The notes below the pieces were generated by a model. It did not search any database. It was not told where the DNA came from and worked only from the letters and a program-made list of their open reading frames with translations. Below, piece by piece: positions 4,654-18,561 of a DNA stretch of 20,345 bases (positions within the stretch are counted from its first letter, which is position 1; every line of letters begins with the position of its first letter). This DNA comes from a virus. The translations under genes were made by a program, and so were the position numbers. The stretch covers positions 1 to 20,345 of the IMG/VR virus record IMGVR_UViG_3300021963_000817, one strand, 5' to 3'.

Positions 4654-6624
4654 TTATTTTTTACGTGTTACGACTTTAACCTCCCAACGATGGCGGCAAT
4701 ATGGCCGGTGAGTGCCGTCAGGCTCCGTGAACCAACCGCCACGGCGATCCCATACCGAATACCCAAGCCTTGCGCTTATGTTCTCAATGTCAGCACGGCT
4801 CCAAAGTTTCTTCTCGGCTATCTCAAGCATCCTCGCACAAAACGGACGATTGCGTGAATCCTTTGGGCCGGCGTATGTGTATCTCAAAAGCACCTCGGTT
4901 GTAGTGCTTTTATCACCGCCAGGGATATCCCTAAGAGGCTCTGTTAAGACTCTTTCTTGCGGTTTGTACTTTGGGTTGAGTATTGACAAAACCTTGCCGA
5001 TAGTCTTTAAATATCCCTCGTCAGCTAGTGCCTTGAGTGCTATGTTGATAGCTCCCACCTCTTTATTCAACACAATGGCCATCACTTCGGGAGTGATGCG
5101 CTTGTCCTTACTAATCAAGTCAAGCACATTCGCTTTCAACTTATCAAGCTCCTCATCGGCAAAGCCGCTGAATTGCCTCGTTTCAATCACTTCAAAATCC
5201 TCTAAGTTGTCGCCGCAAGCCGCAAATTCATTGAGCAAAATATCGTCTTGCATTGATGCGAACGCTTGCTCTTCGGTTTGTGAATCGTCGTCAATACCTA
5301 AGAATGTGTTAACGTCGTTGTCAGTAAAACCAAACCCGCTCTTTAACATCAACGCCGCTTGCTGCTTGTTTATCTTACCGCTACCGAATTGACGAACGAT
5401 ACGCATTACGTTTTGATATTGCCTACCGCTTAAATTCTTAATCGCTTCATTCGATGCCGCTACGGGTTGAGCTTCAACGGATGGAGATGCCGTAATATCT
5501 TTCTCTAATCCCATCTTCTCACGGATCTCGTCGCGTGTCATATTAGCCGCAATGATCGCCTCGCTAAACTCAAAGCTCAAAGGCTCAACGGGAAGTATCT
5601 TGTACTCGCCTTGAATCCCAGCTAAATTCATTAACTTATTGAAATTCGCCTCATGCTCTTGCTGACGCTCATTTACATAAGTATTCTGGAAGATCTGATA
5701 AGCATCACGGATCTCGCTACGCCCACCGAGTTGCCCCTCCGTCTTTATACCGAAAAGGCTTGGCGATGTAATTTGATGGCAAGCGAAAATCTCTTGCTGA
5801 ATCAAATTATTGATATTCGTGAAATCCTCTTTTGTGAGGCTTGTTTCGCCAAGATCTTGAATATCAACCGCGTTTTCCCTTGATGGGTTAAACGCAATCA
5901 CTACCCTATCGCCGTCGTGATTCTGAAACTTGCGCTTCAAATCCCTTTCAACCTCTTCTTGCTCCTCCTCTTGAGGTAGGCCGTTGTTGAAGTTGATGAG
6001 CTTGGTAGCTACGAAATTGTTTTTAGCATTTCCCAAAATGTGACGCGAAACCTGGATATCACTTTCAAGGTAGTTAAGACCTTGAAAATATGATGGCAAA
6101 GGGTAAACGTCACTCTTCGGGTTGTATTGCTTTACAAAAAGTATTTGTGAGCCTTGCGGATCGTTTGGATTAAACGCCGGATATTCCCTCGCCTTCTCTT
6201 TAAAATCGCTAGCGCTCCAATCGTCTTTTATGTAGAAAGTTGTCAGATCCTTTGAGGCTCTGACCTTTTGAAATTCAATGTGGTATGTTTCTGCGATCTG
6301 CCCAAGTGCATTGTAAATCACTTGTAAATAATATCCACCATGGATCTCGTCGTCCATGATGGCACGCTTCATGATCTGGTTCCATGTTTCGCCGCGGCTA
6401 TTCGCCGCCTTCGGAACGTCATCAAAACCTTTACCGAAAATGTAATTGACTTTACCTTTTACAATCGCCCCGTGTTTAGGACTTTCGCCAAAAAGTGAAA
6501 TCAAGTAATTCGGATAGTCGTTACGCTCGCCGAACTCAACATATTTTTTGCCTTTCTTTTCGGCAAATTTCGGTTGTTGAGCTTGATCAAATTCTACCCT
6601 TACTAAGTTGTATTGTTTAGCCAT
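4654..6624 (-). CDS. Portal protein with C-terminal winged-helix and MuF-like extension
   Basis: The first ~380 of 656 residues resemble an HK97-type portal, the dodecameric ring through which DNA is packaged and ejected. Landmarks are RNDYPNYLISLFGESPKH (residues 34-51), the wing and stem region around 100-250 and the clip/crown signature ITSPSLFGIKTEGQLGGRSE (285-304). A Gln/Asp-rich linker (about 380-490) leads to a helix-turn-helix-like stretch (about 495-545, ITPEVMAIVLNKEVGAIN). The last ~80 residues read GPKDSRNRPFC ... SARLGYSVWDRRGGWFTEPDG ... YCRHRW. Residues C596, C643 and H645 in this part could bind metal. The end resembles the C-terminal core of MuF-type minor capsid proteins, normally a separate gene after the portal. 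The gene overlaps the upstream one by 8 bp. Confidence 0.9.
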   Translation of the reverse strand: MAKQYNLVRVEFDQAQQPKFAEKKGKKYVEFGERNDYPNYLISLFGESPKHGAIVKGKVNYIFGKGFDDVPKAANSRGETWNQIMKRAIMDDEIHGGYYLQVIYNALGQIAETYHIEFQKVRASKDLTTFYIKDDWSASDFKEKAREYPAFNPNDPQGSQILFVKQYNPKSDVYPLPSYFQGLNYLESDIQVSRHILGNAKNNFVATKLINFNNGLPQEEEQEEVERDLKRKFQNHDGDRVVIAFNPSRENAVDIQDLGETSLTKEDFTNINNLIQQEIFACHQITSPSLFGIKTEGQLGGRSEIRDAYQIFQNTYVNERQQEHEANFNKLMNLAGIQGEYKILPVEPLSFEFSEAIIAANMTRDEIREKMGLEKDITASPSVEAQPVAASNEAIKNLSGRQYQNVMRIVRQFGSGKINKQQAALMLKSGFGFTDNDVNTFLGIDDDSQTEEQAFASMQDDILLNEFAACGDNLEDFEVIETRQFSGFADEELDKLKANVLDLISKDKRITPEVMAIVLNKEVGAINIALKALADEGYLKTIGKVLSILNPKYKPQERVLTEPLRDIPGGDKSTTTEVLLRYTYAGPKDSRNRPFCARMLEIAEKKLWSRADIENISARLGYSVWDRRGGWFTEPDGTHRPYCRHRWEVKVVTRKK

Positions 6625-10303: not shown

Positions 10304-12331
10304 TTACATGATTGTTGCGGCCCTATTCAACCTATCCGCCCGCTCTTGAGCGTTTGAAACATCGCTTTCAACAACGTATGCCCTAGCGGCCACGTTGCCG
10401 ATTTGATTGATTTGCTCCTGGTCGATTCTAGTCGTTTGTGATTGACTTCTCAAAGGTGCCGATGCGTTTATTGTAGGTGCGCTAATCGGTGCAATAGATC
10501 CACCTGATCCGCCTTTAACTTGCGTCAATATGCTTTTAGCTTTTGCGGCCGCACCAAGCACTGCGGCTATTTGCGTAGCGTAAAAAATAGGGAAAGCTAA
10601 AGCGGCACCAGGACCGGCAGCTTTTGCGCTTTTCTGCGCAATATCTAAACCTTGAATATATCCCGTACCCGTACCGATGGCGATTTCAGCAAGAGCGGCA
10701 ACTTTTGCGGCAGCGGTGCCTTGTTCAAATAATCCGGAAAGTCCTGATAATATCCCACCAACTGCGCTTGCATATTGCAACTTGGCTTGAAGTTCTGCAT
10801 CTTGGTAAGCAATCCGCTGATCCGTTAATGACTTTACTTTTTGATTATATTCGCTCTCCGTGATTAATCTATTATCAAAAGCCTGCTGAACCAATATTTG
10901 CTCCTGATCAAGTGCATCAATCTTTAATTGAAACTCAATACCCCTCTCGGTTTGCAGTCTATCGAGTAGCTCAACTTCTCTTTTGTAAGTCGCAACCGCT
11001 ATTTGATTCTCTAAACTTTGTAAAGATAAGTCAATCTGCTGCTTTTTTTCTGCATAGGCAATCTCCGCGTCAACCCTTGCTTGCGTTCCCGCTTTTGCGT
11101 TATTAATATTATCTTGAAGTCTTTTTAATTCTATTTCACCCTCCTCTTGAGCTATCTTTTTATTTATGTTTAGCTTCTCAATCTCATCTTTTATAAGCTC
11201 AGCGTTTGCCTTTTTTCTTTCAATAAGCAATTTATTCTCACTCGCGGCAATAGCCTGATCAAGTGCTAAACGCTCTTTTGTTAGTGCCGTAGCATTGACT
11301 AATTGCTCCGATCTTAACCCGGCCACTTGCGCCTCAACCGCTGCAACTTCATTTTGCGCCTCAATCAAAGCGGCTTGAAGCTCAACGCTTGATTTGTTTT
11401 GTGCAAGCTCGGCGGCGGCAGCGGCTACCCTTTGTTCCGCTAATCCTTTTAAGGCCTTCTCTTGATCGTCCAATACTTTACCGAGCGCATCATTTGCCGC
11501 AATTCTTTCATCAATACTTTTAAATTCATCATCCCTTACTTGTCTAAGTTGTTCCGCTTGTCGGTCGTATTGCTCGACAAGTCCTTGCAATTGCGCGGCG
11601 GCAATCTTTGCATTGTTTTGAAGTGCGATTGTTGCCTTTGATTGCTCATAAATAGCAGCTACATTTATTTTGCTAGCCTTCTCAACTACGCCGCTAACAA
11701 CATCAACAACAGACGACGCAGCCTCGCCGAAATTGTTGTAAATATCTTTACCCGCTTCGATGGCGTTTTTTGCCGTTTGAGCTAGACTGTCCTTTGTTTC
11801 ATTGATGCTTTTTGTTAGCTCTTTTATCGTTGTCTGGTCCTTATCCCCAAATGGTGACTGCTCCCACGCTAACTGTATTTCATTAATAACTAATTTGATG
11901 CCATCAAAAGCGGCTTTGAATGGCGTTATAACAAGCGTTAGAATACCTCCCAAAACCTTACCAAGTGCCGCGAAGCCGTTAGTGTTTTTACCTACCTCGG
12001 TTGTAACACTCACAAAAATATCAATCAACGTATTTATGACCGTTGATATTGTATTGAATACCGCCGCTACACTATCGGCAACCTTTTGATTCTTGCTTAG
12101 CGTTTCACGGAAAAAATTAAATGCCGCCGTTATTGCGCCAATTATACCCAATGACTTCAAAGCATTACCGATACTGCCAAAAGCACCCGCCGCACCTTTG
12201 GCACTCTTTGCGCTTTTCTCGGCGCTGCCACCTAAATCATCTATTTGCTTTTTTGTTTCGTTTAAATTCTTTTGCGCATCACCCGTCTTTACCTCTACCT
12301 CCGCGACTACCTTTACATTTTTATCTGCCAT
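10304..12331 (-). CDS. Tail tape measure protein
   Basis: The product is 675 aa. It would sit in the tail lumen, set tail length and help DNA pass into the cell. The N-terminus is charged and helical (residues 1-45), followed by hydrophobic stretches (about 55-73 and 120-137, GFAALGKVLGGILTLVITPF). A very long coiled coil, rich in Ala, Gln, Glu and Lys, spans about 225-520. A second hydrophobic region lies at about 520-600 (ASAVGGILSGLSGLFEQG). The C-terminal tail includes INQIGNVAARAYVVESDVSN. This arrangement is diagnostic for tape measures. The length suggests a tail of roughly 100 nm by the usual rule of about 0.15 nm per residue. Unusually, it comes after the tail-tip genes and directly before the capsid module. 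Confidence 0.9.
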   Translation of the reverse strand: MADKNVKVVAEVEVKTGDAQKNLNETKKQIDDLGGSAEKSAKSAKGAAGAFGSIGNALKSLGIIGAITAAFNFFRETLSKNQKVADSVAAVFNTISTVINTLIDIFVSVTTEVGKNTNGFAALGKVLGGILTLVITPFKAAFDGIKLVINEIQLAWEQSPFGDKDQTTIKELTKSINETKDSLAQTAKNAIEAGKDIYNNFGEAASSVVDVVSGVVEKASKINVAAIYEQSKATIALQNNAKIAAAQLQGLVEQYDRQAEQLRQVRDDEFKSIDERIAANDALGKVLDDQEKALKGLAEQRVAAAAAELAQNKSSVELQAALIEAQNEVAAVEAQVAGLRSEQLVNATALTKERLALDQAIAASENKLLIERKKANAELIKDEIEKLNINKKIAQEEGEIELKRLQDNINNAKAGTQARVDAEIAYAEKKQQIDLSLQSLENQIAVATYKREVELLDRLQTERGIEFQLKIDALDQEQILVQQAFDNRLITESEYNQKVKSLTDQRIAYQDAELQAKLQYASAVGGILSGLSGLFEQGTAAAKVAALAEIAIGTGTGYIQGLDIAQKSAKAAGPGAALAFPIFYATQIAAVLGAAAKAKSILTQVKGGSGGSIAPISAPTINASAPLRSQSQTTRIDQEQINQIGNVAARAYVVESDVSNAQERADRLNRAATIM

Positions 12332-15581: not shown

Positions 15582-16226
15582 TTATTTTTTCTTTATGCTT
15601 TCAAATGTTAAAACAATATCTTCCCCAACCGCTTCGCTCATAACTACCTCAAAATCTTTGAAGGTTTCCTCAAAGGCTAGATTGAAATAGTTAGTAGCTT
15701 TTATGCCATACTTTTTGATCATGTAAGCCATTGTTTCGGCTTGTCTATCCAATGCCGTCTTTTTATTTGCGTTTCTCAATCCTTTCTTTTCAAGGCCTAT
15801 CCCTAACGCAACATCACGCCTAACGCTTGATATTTTAGCCTTACCGCTTGAGATATATCTTTTAAGCGATTCAATACCGCTTTGAGGCATCCCATAGTTA
15901 CGATATTGATATGGCGAATTAGGAGCGTTTTTACTTGATGCCACACCCTTAACACCCTGATTCGGATAGTCGTAATAATCGAGCATCCGAAGCCTGAACG
16001 TTTCAATACCAGGTTGCCTCTCAATCTCACTAGCCATTGACTTCAACAACTCACCGCTCGAAGTAATCTTTTTTTGATCGGCATACTTTGCGATATTCGT
16101 TTGTAACAAAGCACCATATTGCTCAAGCACACCACTGACAACATTAAATTCAGCAATGCCCTCACCCGCTAACCCTTCAAGCTCGCTAAGTGCCTTTTTT
16201 TGTGCTTTGCTGATATTGATACTCAT
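15582..16226 (-). CDS. HK97 gp10-like tail completion / neck protein, putative
   Basis: The 214-aa product is helical at the start (MSINISKAQKKALSELEGLA), then has TNIAKYADQKKITSSGELLK followed by beta strands around FRLRMLDYYDYPNQGVKG. Near the end are DRQAETMAYMIKKYGIKATN and YFNLAFEETF. The KITSSGELLKSM-to-YYxYPNxGVKG pattern and the KYGIKATNYF ending match gp10-type proteins, where a helix-strand core attaches at the neck or tail end. The similarity is by pattern and not certain. The ATG lies inside the -1 frame extension of the upstream chaperone (41 bp overlap), so frameshifting ribosomes would stop within this gene, at 16186. Confidence 0.75.
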   Translation of the reverse strand: MSINISKAQKKALSELEGLAGEGIAEFNVVSGVLEQYGALLQTNIAKYADQKKITSSGELLKSMASEIERQPGIETFRLRMLDYYDYPNQGVKGVASSKNAPNSPYQYRNYGMPQSGIESLKRYISSGKAKISSVRRDVALGIGLEKKGLRNANKKTALDRQAETMAYMIKKYGIKATNYFNLAFEETFKDFEVVMSEAVGEDIVLTFESIKKK

Positions 16227-16964
16227 CGACTTCTCGTTTCATTTTTAAATACATCAAATCGTTCAAAAATTGAACGACTGGTAATTCATAAACCGCCTCT
16301 AAACTTATTCCCTCAAATTCACTCACTTGCTTTGCATTGTAGATCCACCCGAAGGCGTCTGAAAAATGCTCTTCAATTGTTTTGCTTTTTTTGACTTCCC
16401 CATCCTCCTCGCTATCTCCAATTCCAAAGAGGGATTTGAACTCCCCGTTAAATTGGTTAATAGCGAATAAAAAAAAACCATTGCATGATAACCATGTCTG
16501 AAATCCGCTTGCTTTAAATCATTCGCGTATGTTTCATGCTCCAACACATCATAATTTTCCTTAATATATCCTAACTTCCGCCAGCTCCATTTTAGCGGAG
16601 TGCAAATTGATGCCAAAATGTTGTGCATATTCGCTATCGGATCCTCTTTGCTAAATGTCAAAACCTCAATGTACCTACCCGTATTGAACGGCTTTTTGAT
16701 CTCATAGTTGATATGATACCTTTTGCCGTTCGCCTTGATCATGCTTTGAGGCTTGCTCATTGTCGCCGCATCAATCTTTATATCAAAAATAGCCTTCAAT
16801 TTTTCGCACAATAAGTTGAAGTCCTTAATATGCATATCATCAATCTCTTCGGCCGTTTTGTCCAATAACACTTGAACAAGGCGGCTCGCCTTTTCAATCT
16901 CGTCCGTTTCGATAGACGCGATCGCTTGCAATCTCTGAAATTTGTCAATTGTGAGCTTCATCAT
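16186..16964 (-). CDS. Tail assembly chaperone, long form produced by -1 frameshift (259 aa predicted)
   Basis: The zero frame ends at 16323. A -1 shift at the A7 run (16392-16386) or at the earlier T-rich run (16476-16470) enters a frame open to TAG at 16188-16186. With either slip the product has 259 residues. From the A7 slip the extension is 66 residues. It includes TIEEHFSDAFGWIYNAKQV, FEGISLEAVYELPVVQFLND and LMYLKMKREVDEYQYQQ, which read like a real folded protein. The extension fills the otherwise gene-free 16227-16322 and runs 41 bp into the next gene. This mirrors lambda gpG/gpGT, where a small share of ribosomes makes a longer chaperone that binds the tape measure. Unlike lambda, the tape measure lies about 3.9 kb further on. 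A one-base sequencing error in a homopolymer would give the same picture. Confidence 0.7.
16323..16964 (-). CDS. Tail assembly chaperone, short (zero-frame) form
   Basis: The zero-frame product is 213 aa. It is helical at the start (KFQRLQAIASIETDEIEKA), with DFNLLCEKLKAIFDIKI, a strand-rich middle (IKANGKRYHINYEIKKPFNT) and then DPIANMHNILASICTP and DLKQADFRHGYHAMVFF. The C-terminus is basic (RRMGKSKKAKQLKSIF). The role is inferred from the position before the tail genes, the slippery runs and the -1 extension, as in gpG-type chaperones. There is no signal peptide or membrane segment. The gene starts 15 nt after the terminase stop. Two adjacent ATG codons are present at the start. Confidence 0.8.
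   Translation of the reverse strand: MMKLTIDKFQRLQAIASIETDEIEKASRLVQVLLDKTAEEIDDMHIKDFNLLCEKLKAIFDIKIDAATMSKPQSMIKANGKRYHINYEIKKPFNTGRYIEVLTFSKEDPIANMHNILASICTPLKWSWRKLGYIKENYDVLEHETYANDLKQADFRHGYHAMVFFYSLLTNLTGSSNPSLELEIARRMGKSKKAKQLKSIFQTPSGGSTMQSK
16386..16392 (-). other. Slippery heptamer A_AAA_AAA, candidate -1 frameshift site
   Basis: On the minus strand the zero-frame reading is TCA AAA AAA GCA. The seven A residues at 16392-16386 allow both lysine tRNAs to re-pair perfectly one base back. The next -1 codon is AGC. The site lies 61 nt before the zero-frame stop. No strong hairpin or pseudoknot is seen at the usual 5-9 nt spacing. Confidence 0.6.
16470..16476 (-). other. Alternative slippery heptamer T_TTT_TTT within a T9 run
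   Basis: The zero-frame reading on the minus strand is GTT TTT TTT TAT (16478-16467), within nine T residues at 16477-16469. A -1 shift here enters the same frame as the A7 site. It would replace the basic zero-frame stretch with INQFNGEFKSLFGIGDSEED. It may be a true slip site, or a homopolymer where the base count is wrong. Confidence 0.4.
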
Positions 16965-16979
16965 TTATAAATATACTTT

Positions 16980-18146
16980 TTAAATTACGTGGTACTTACC
17001 TACTTGCTTATGATCGAGGCGGCACTTATTGGCTAAGGCTAAGGCAATTACACAGTCGTCATGAAACCCTTGAGGCGCTGAATATCTCACCCCCGTCGGC
17101 GTGAACTTATATTCAAAAATCTCAAGCTCTTGCCTTATCGGGCCGTCGGGATAAGATATGCTCATCGTCTGAATTGAGCTTGACAACGCCTCCAAAAGTT
17201 GCTGCTTGCTTACGGACGTGAACTTGAACCCGTGCATATTGCTAAACTTTTTTTGCAGCTCCTCAACGATGGCATCACCGACGCCGGTACTATCAATAAC
17301 AACCGGCAAGTTCTTTGGCAGCCTCAAGATCGCCTCTTTTGTCTGCATCCAGTCTTTTTGAAACCGCTCGAAGTGGACGACATTGCCTATCTTATCCATT
17401 CCAACTATGACAGTCCAGTCCACGGACTTTGCCAAATCTATTCCGTAATAAGCCGCCACCCCTTTCGTTTCACGTGTGCAAGCCATGATAAATTCGCTAC
17501 CAAAAGGGTTCGCGGCATTTTCCATTGGATTCGCTAGGTACTCTTGCTCGAACACCACGCTCGGCAATTGCGCCCGTGCCTCATCAATCTCCGTCGGATC
17601 AATATGCGGATTGTCGTAAGTAGTGAACTTGAACGATTGCCATGATGGCTCCCCGCCCCGCATGAACAACGAATAAAAGTAATTCTTACCCCTCGGCGTA
17701 CTTAGGAATATTGCCTTCCCTTTGTAATCGGTAAGCGTGGGCCTTATCGAGTTATTCCAGCCGTCCTCAAGGTTTGCAATATAGCTAGCCTCGTCGATAA
17801 TCACTAAATGGTACTTAGTACCGCGCATCGCGTCTAACCTCTCACCCGTATAAAAGCGGATATTCCCACCCGTTACGAAGTTGATGAATAGATCCGATTC
17901 GTTTTTTTTGTACACCTTGTCAGGCAATTGCTTGCATATCTCTTTGAAAAACATCTTACCGAGCTGATACGTCGGCGTGATATATGCAACGTATTGCCGC
18001 TTCAATGCGCTTTCAATGGCGATATTTTGGCTGATCACCGACTTTCCAAATCTACGCCCCGCCATCATAACACGGAAGCGAGAATCGGACTTAATTACTT
18101 CGAGCTGCTTTTCATGTGGCCTGGGTAGCTTAATTTCCAGATTCAT
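16980..18146 (-). CDS. terL: Terminase large subunit
   Basis: This 388-aa packaging motor has an N-terminal ATPase and C-terminal nuclease. The ATPase shows the Walker A AGRRFGKS (residues 29-36), Walker B with catalytic Glu VIIDEA (115-120) and coupling motif STPRGK (149-154). The nuclease has acidic residues in the expected order: D237 in YYGIDLAK, D285 in VVIDSTGVGD and D363/D364 in GFHDDCVIALA. The length is slightly short for the family but all motifs are present, so it should be active. The gene overlaps the small subunit gene by 17 bp. The chaperone gene follows within 15 nt. Confidence 0.96.
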   Translation of the reverse strand: MNLEIKLPRPHEKQLEVIKSDSRFRVMMAGRRFGKSVISQNIAIESALKRQYVAYITPTYQLGKMFFKEICKQLPDKVYKKNESDLFINFVTGGNIRFYTGERLDAMRGTKYHLVIIDEASYIANLEDGWNNSIRPTLTDYKGKAIFLSTPRGKNYFYSLFMRGGEPSWQSFKFTTYDNPHIDPTEIDEARAQLPSVVFEQEYLANPMENAANPFGSEFIMACTRETKGVAAYYGIDLAKSVDWTVIVGMDKIGNVVHFERFQKDWMQTKEAILRLPKNLPVVIDSTGVGDAIVEELQKKFSNMHGFKFTSVSKQQLLEALSSSIQTMSISYPDGPIRQELEIFEYKFTPTGVRYSAPQGFHDDCVIALALANKCRLDHKQVGKYHVI

Positions 18147-18561
18147 ACTTGATTGTGATCGTGTCGATGTTCGTATTCTCTGTCTGCGCCCTATCTGTCA
18201 TGCCTAATGCGTTTTTGGCGTAGAATATACCCTTACCCTCATTGGCTACGATATCCGTCGCAAGTGCTTTGAACTTGTCGTCCGTTTCCATCATCATTGC
18301 GTAATATGGATGCGTCGGATCTTGCTTTACTTTCCAAACGCCCATAGCAGTATAAAACTCGAAATGATGCCTACGCAACCAATGATACAAAAAGTAGTTA
18401 GTAGTAGGCAAATGCCTTTCCCTTACCTCTACGATCTTGCCCGATCCCGTCGCTACCTCTTTTGTGCTATTGATACAATAGTCGCAATATTCATCTACTA
18501 ATTGATAGAACCTATCTTTATCTATTTCCATAAAAGGCCTTGTTTTTGCTTCTCTTATCAT
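18130..18561 (-). CDS. Terminase small subunit-like protein
   Basis: This 143-aa protein probably recognises phage DNA and loads the large subunit. The N-terminal half contains KDRFYQLVDEYCDYCI and VRERHLPTTNYFLYHWLRRH, a helical pattern consistent with a DNA-binding headpiece. The C-terminal half has GKGIFYAKNALGMTDRAQTE, similar to the FxLKNxxGxxD ending common in small terminases. It overlaps the large subunit gene by 17 bp, the classical terS-terL arrangement. The assignment depends on this context and the C-terminal motif. The upstream leader is A/T-rich. Confidence 0.8.
   Translation of the reverse strand: MIREAKTRPFMEIDKDRFYQLVDEYCDYCINSTKEVATGSGKIVEVRERHLPTTNYFLYHWLRRHHFEFYTAMGVWKVKQDPTHPYYAMMMETDDKFKALATDIVANEGKGIFYAKNALGMTDRAQTENTNIDTITIKYESGN

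Follow-up and report, generated by a model that had tools for sequence, protein, structure and literature searches.

The gene that directly follows terL in the viral DNA analysed here (IMG/VR record IMGVR_UViG_3300021963_000817, positions 1 to 20,345; the whole stretch of 20,345 nt is called the window below) has the layout of lambda G/GT, with a reading frame that is conserved up to a run of exactly nine Ts (T9) and a -1 frame that is conserved from this run onward; the run keeps its length in nearly all relatives. We consider it most likely that RNA polymerase slips at T9 and that the two products are tail assembly chaperones, a combined reading to which we assign a probability of about 0.55.

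According to this reading, ordinary expression would give a short protein of 213 amino acids. Slippage of RNA polymerase on T9 most likely leaves some transcripts with one extra U; ribosomes reading these transcripts normally would continue in the -1 frame and make a protein of 259 amino acids with a helical C-terminal domain. The N-terminal domain would most likely act on the tape measure protein and the C-terminal domain on the tail tube protein. That the chaperone pair of a large Bacteroidota phage group arises in this way, with the polymerase setting the ratio of short to long product, is in our judgement an even bet. The -1 frameshift of tail chaperones is textbook ribosomal recoding; if the polymerase runs the two-product layout in a whole phage group, it would be the pair of products that is conserved and not the machine that produces it.

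Layout of the putative two-product gene

The features of the window are listed in Table 1. The sequence-only reading had described the 213-aa ORF with its terminal TGA, an in-register A_AAA_AAA run (A7), a -1 frame open to a TAG (16186-16188) and a gap of 96 nt, all of which are present in the sequence. The -1 frame spans this gap, which lies before the next start at 16226; it is already open from about codon 148, well upstream of A7, and is protein-like from T9 onward, T9 lying 85 nt upstream of A7. As the ORFs are read, residues 1-165 are common to the short and the long form. Three genes separate the two-product gene from the probable tape measure gene. Elsewhere in the window, a portal-like protein of 656 amino acids (4654-6624) matches portal families only over residues of about 16-332; by eye, its C-terminal part resembles the end of a head morphogenesis (MuF-like) protein, and it is perhaps a fusion.

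Table 1. Features of the two-product gene and its surroundings in the window
Feature	Position	Strand	Remarks
Terminase large subunit	16980..18146	minus	directly upstream of the 213-aa ORF; phrog_2, E 1.6e-47
Zero-frame ORF, gene-G-like short product	16323..16964	minus	213 aa; ends in TGA
T9 run, putative frame-change site	16469..16477	minus	GTT TTT TTT TAT in frame 0; next -1 codon TTA
Predicted stem-loop just after T9	16408..16467	minus	z -2.7; particular to the window, not conserved
-1 frame extension, putative T-like C-terminal domain	16186..16470	minus	94 codons (LFAINQFNGEF...QQSTKKGT) + TAG; gives the 259-aa long form
Zero-frame tail of the short form	16323..16469	minus	48 codons + TGA; overlaps the -1 frame
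A7 run (A_AAA_AAA, in register)	16386..16392	minus	site of the sequence-only reading; not the conserved site
Next gene	15582..16226	minus	214 aa; function unknown (phrog_29822, E 1.1e-6); begins within the last part of the -1 frame
Probable tape measure protein	10304..12331	minus	phrog_1538, E 2.8e-5; further down the operon

Conservation of the two frames and of T9

A first comparison set of eight loci (seven contigs 53-55% identical and one 95% identical) showed frame 0 to be conserved up to T9 and frame -1 from T9 on, with divergence of the frame-0 tail. When dN/dS was estimated pairwise in 14 relatives by a simple counting method, it was about 0.05 for the N-terminal part; about 0.71 for frame 0 versus 0.42 for frame -1 in the overlap; and about 0.10 for frame -1 after the overlap. 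By this measure the -1 domain is a real protein under purifying selection, and the frame-0 tail of the short form is weakly constrained. The proposal of a programmed -1 extension of the gene-G/GT type, made from the window on its own, agrees with the conservation in relatives both of T9 and, at protein level, of the -1 region.

Eight scans of IMG/VR yielded 124 related contigs, and exactly T9 is found at the site in 121 of these. Together with the window and the cultured Nonlabens phage P12024S this makes 123 distinct records with an exact T9, which fall into 44 clusters at 85% identity. No second run of at least nine Ts occurs on the sense strand in 451 kb from 45 loci (61 T7 and 4 T8 runs), and conservation of T9 is far beyond chance because it is exact in 123 records while no other such run exists in this sequence. 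The run stands in three codon phases: xTT TTT TTT Txx in the main group and P12024S, TTT TTT TTT GCA in all 35 contigs of one clade (L144), and GCT TTT TTT TTA in a single contig (L046). In all three it is nine Ts long, although only two of the phase changes are independent. Relatives in bacterial genome contigs were looked for and none was found.

Three contigs lack T9. L111 has a T10 (L111:1307-1316) and encodes the long form in one open frame, either as a real variant or through a sequencing error. L145 (1063-1776) and L191 (4001-4714) encode an unbroken fusion of 237 amino acids with no homopolymer run; the two are 83% identical to each other and about 31% identical to the window's protein. 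Both are syntenic with the window, with TerL before the fusion and genes of about 220, 390 and 700 amino acids after it; a gene of like size occupies the place of the window's 214-aa gene. Judged from its reading frames, this lineage apparently lacks the frame change and would make only the long form. Relatives with an unbroken frame and no slippery run, which the sequence-only reading had named as evidence against itself, thus exist in these two contigs but not in the 121 others. DNA phase variation at the run is unlikely: of the 122 contigs with a run, one has T10 and none has T8.

RNA polymerase or ribosome

We favour transcriptional slippage at T9, which we regard as the probable mechanism on comparative grounds, because of the constant nine Ts, the lack of a conserved downstream RNA structure, the lack of Shine-Dalgarno signals and the slippage literature. 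The competing explanation, that ribosomes change frame on U_UUU_UUU by ordinary -1 programmed frameshifting, as they do in lambda G/GT on another heptamer, is a serious contender but the less probable of the two.

Both mechanisms have something to point to at the site itself. An in-register heptamer of the form X_XXY_YYZ, as ribosomal frameshifting would use, is present as U_UUU_UUU inside every T9, and, of the tail chaperone cases in the literature searched, those that have been characterised work through the ribosome (PMC5009743, PMC3711429). Seven Ts would suffice for this, however, yet nine are kept in three phases, with the two extra Ts split 1+1, 2+0 or 0+2 around the heptamer. Slippage, for its part, would be expected to use an A/T homopolymer some nine or more nucleotides long, which is what 123 records have at the frame change, and it is run length rather than codon phase that is conserved. 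In bacteria, runs of nine As or Ts cause efficient slippage of RNA polymerase, and ribosomes in E. coli shift less at U_UUU_UUU than at A_AAA_AAG (PMC5009743). Insertions during transcription occur mainly in A/T runs, 80% of them adding one nucleotide, and their rate rises exponentially with run length (PMC5574713); one added U leads exactly into the -1 frame.

Given the in-register T7 core alone, T9 is expected in 14% of cases from the codon usage of the window, and in 23% if a small or hydrophobic first residue and the lack of a -1 stop are imposed; mostly T7 or T8 is predicted. In the main phase, the flanking Ts are partly explicable by Val/Leu codons and by avoidance of stops in the -1 frame. 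The excess of T9 over this expectation is suggestive of slippage but not decisive, because no more than two of the phase changes are independent and amino-acid constraint may explain part of the flanking Ts.

The signals that could assist a ribosome were also sought. No consensus RNA structure, and hence no 3' stimulatory structure, was found downstream of T9 in 14 relatives; single folds were near shuffled values except in the window (Table 1), in L131 (z -2.1) and, less so, in L046 (z -1.6). None of the 25 gene starts in the window has a Shine-Dalgarno-like motif, which agrees with Bacteroidota (PMC6847099), and the leaders are A-rich, as they are there; a Shine-Dalgarno-type stimulator is therefore unlikely. 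Taken with the constant length of T9 in three phases, the lack of a conserved stimulatory structure suggests that the ribosomal mechanism put forward in the sequence-only reading is probably wrong and favours RNA polymerase slippage over it.

Slippage is known in Thermus dnaX and in Shigella mxiE and spa13 (PMC5009743, PMC3711429), which resemble the present gene in having an A/T run of about nine and two products that share an N-terminal part; they differ in being bacterial genes, and for the phage gene slippage is a prediction from the sequence. A search of the open-access literature found no tail chaperone for which transcriptional slippage has been described.

Predicted fold and function of the products

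A gpG/gpGT-like chaperone role is plausible by analogy, from the two-product layout, the predicted helical fold and the setting in a tail module. The gene has the layout of gpG/gpGT but could not be placed in any described chaperone family. In lambda as in the window, a short product and a -1 extension with a separate C-terminal domain would be encoded in a morphogenesis operon, and two products with a common N-terminal part would arise through a -1 change near the end of the first ORF. The window gene differs in having no detectable similarity to lambda G or T by sequence or profile, in slipping at T9, probably during transcription, and in its position, since it follows terL and does not adjoin the tape measure gene, whereas a gene of the G/GT type is expected between the major tail protein and tape measure genes, next to the latter.

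The naturally unbroken fusion of L111 was modelled with a pLDDT of 86.4 and a pTM of 0.78. In the model the N-terminal domain consists of helices and a beta hairpin, and the T run falls inside a long helix (residues 146-176), which is followed by a low-confidence linker and a helical C-terminal domain (residues 193-245). A search of viral folds returned 33 matches at E up to 0.001, all unnamed and P12024S included; among the top 50, the sole named matches were two tail assembly chaperones, those of Arthrobacter phage Kitkat (E 0.17) and Rhodobacter phage RcRhea (E 0.25), both weak. No match was found in the PDB by fold or in Pfam, and nothing convincing in PHROGs or among PDB sequences. The sequence-only reading had called the family hypothetical in Bacteroidota phages, and in the databases searched it is unnamed.

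The products may instead be something other than chaperones, such as a structural protein of the tail or head together with a minor, longer form of it, which we consider unlikely. The position after terL, away from the tape measure gene, and the lack of a match to any chaperone family would fit such a protein; the modelled fold, however, is mainly helical and would be unlike the beta-sandwich of tube proteins, and the only folds with names, weak as the matches are, belong to chaperones. The equation with gpG/gpGT made in the sequence-only reading therefore holds for layout and is plausible for function; it finds no counterpart in family profiles or in adjacency to the tape measure gene.

The A7 run and assembly error

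The sequence-only reading had placed a -1 ribosomal shift at A7, where a perfect in-register A_AAA_AAA does meet an open -1 frame. Outside the window, however, A7 is in register only in the 95%-identical relative (L001/L009), and the alignment of both frames that had been suggested around A7 places the start of -1 conservation upstream, at T9. A shift at A7 is very improbable, and the run could at most be a minor second site. The predicted length of the fusion, 259 amino acids, is retained but its sequence is not: a shift at A7 would have produced about 28 different residues in the stretch between the two runs. That a single 259-aa gene has been split by an assembly or sequencing error is refuted by the same T9 in 121 contigs and the isolate P12024S, even though homopolymers are error-prone and L111 (with T10), L145 and L191 each have one frame.

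Similar sites in cultured phages

When phage isolates were searched by tblastn, neither the window's protein nor any of three divergent relatives gave a match; P12024S was reached through the portal protein. Its gp38 lies directly after terL and carries an exact T9 in the same codon phase as the window; what is annotated as gp39 forms the last part of the -1 extension. The N-domain profile identifies gp38 as a remote homologue (hhalign E 1.1e-8), whereas the C-terminal domain matches that of the family weakly (E 4e-4, 34% probability). These comparisons suggest that gp38 and gp39 (L146:23136-23830), which are annotated as two hypothetical genes, are a single two-product gene with T9, differing from the window in a C-terminal domain that is only weakly alike and in the annotation of gp39 as a separate gene. 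The slippage reading could be tested directly in this cultured phage through its mRNA.

More generally, hypothetical genes could be named by a simple signature: an A/T run of exactly nine nucleotides, close to terL or to the tape measure gene, at which the -1 frame is open. In the scanned region upstream of the tape measure gene, no convincing chaperone-type site was found in P12002S, P2559S, RAP44, 6H or B124-14; 6H has one A8 match there. Flavobacterium phage 11b (L184) has an A9 run (position 18173) with a -1 extension at the end of a chaperone-like gene (gp38/gp39). Compared by layout, it is like the window in being a flavobacterial phage with a nine-nucleotide run and a -1 extension; it differs in having A9 instead of T9 and in lying directly upstream of the likely tape measure gene. 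In Cellulophaga phage phi10:1 (L188) an A8 run (position 36889) is found at the end of a chaperone-like gene, with the second part in the +1 frame. In both 11b and phi10:1 the second parts are annotated as separate hypothetical genes.
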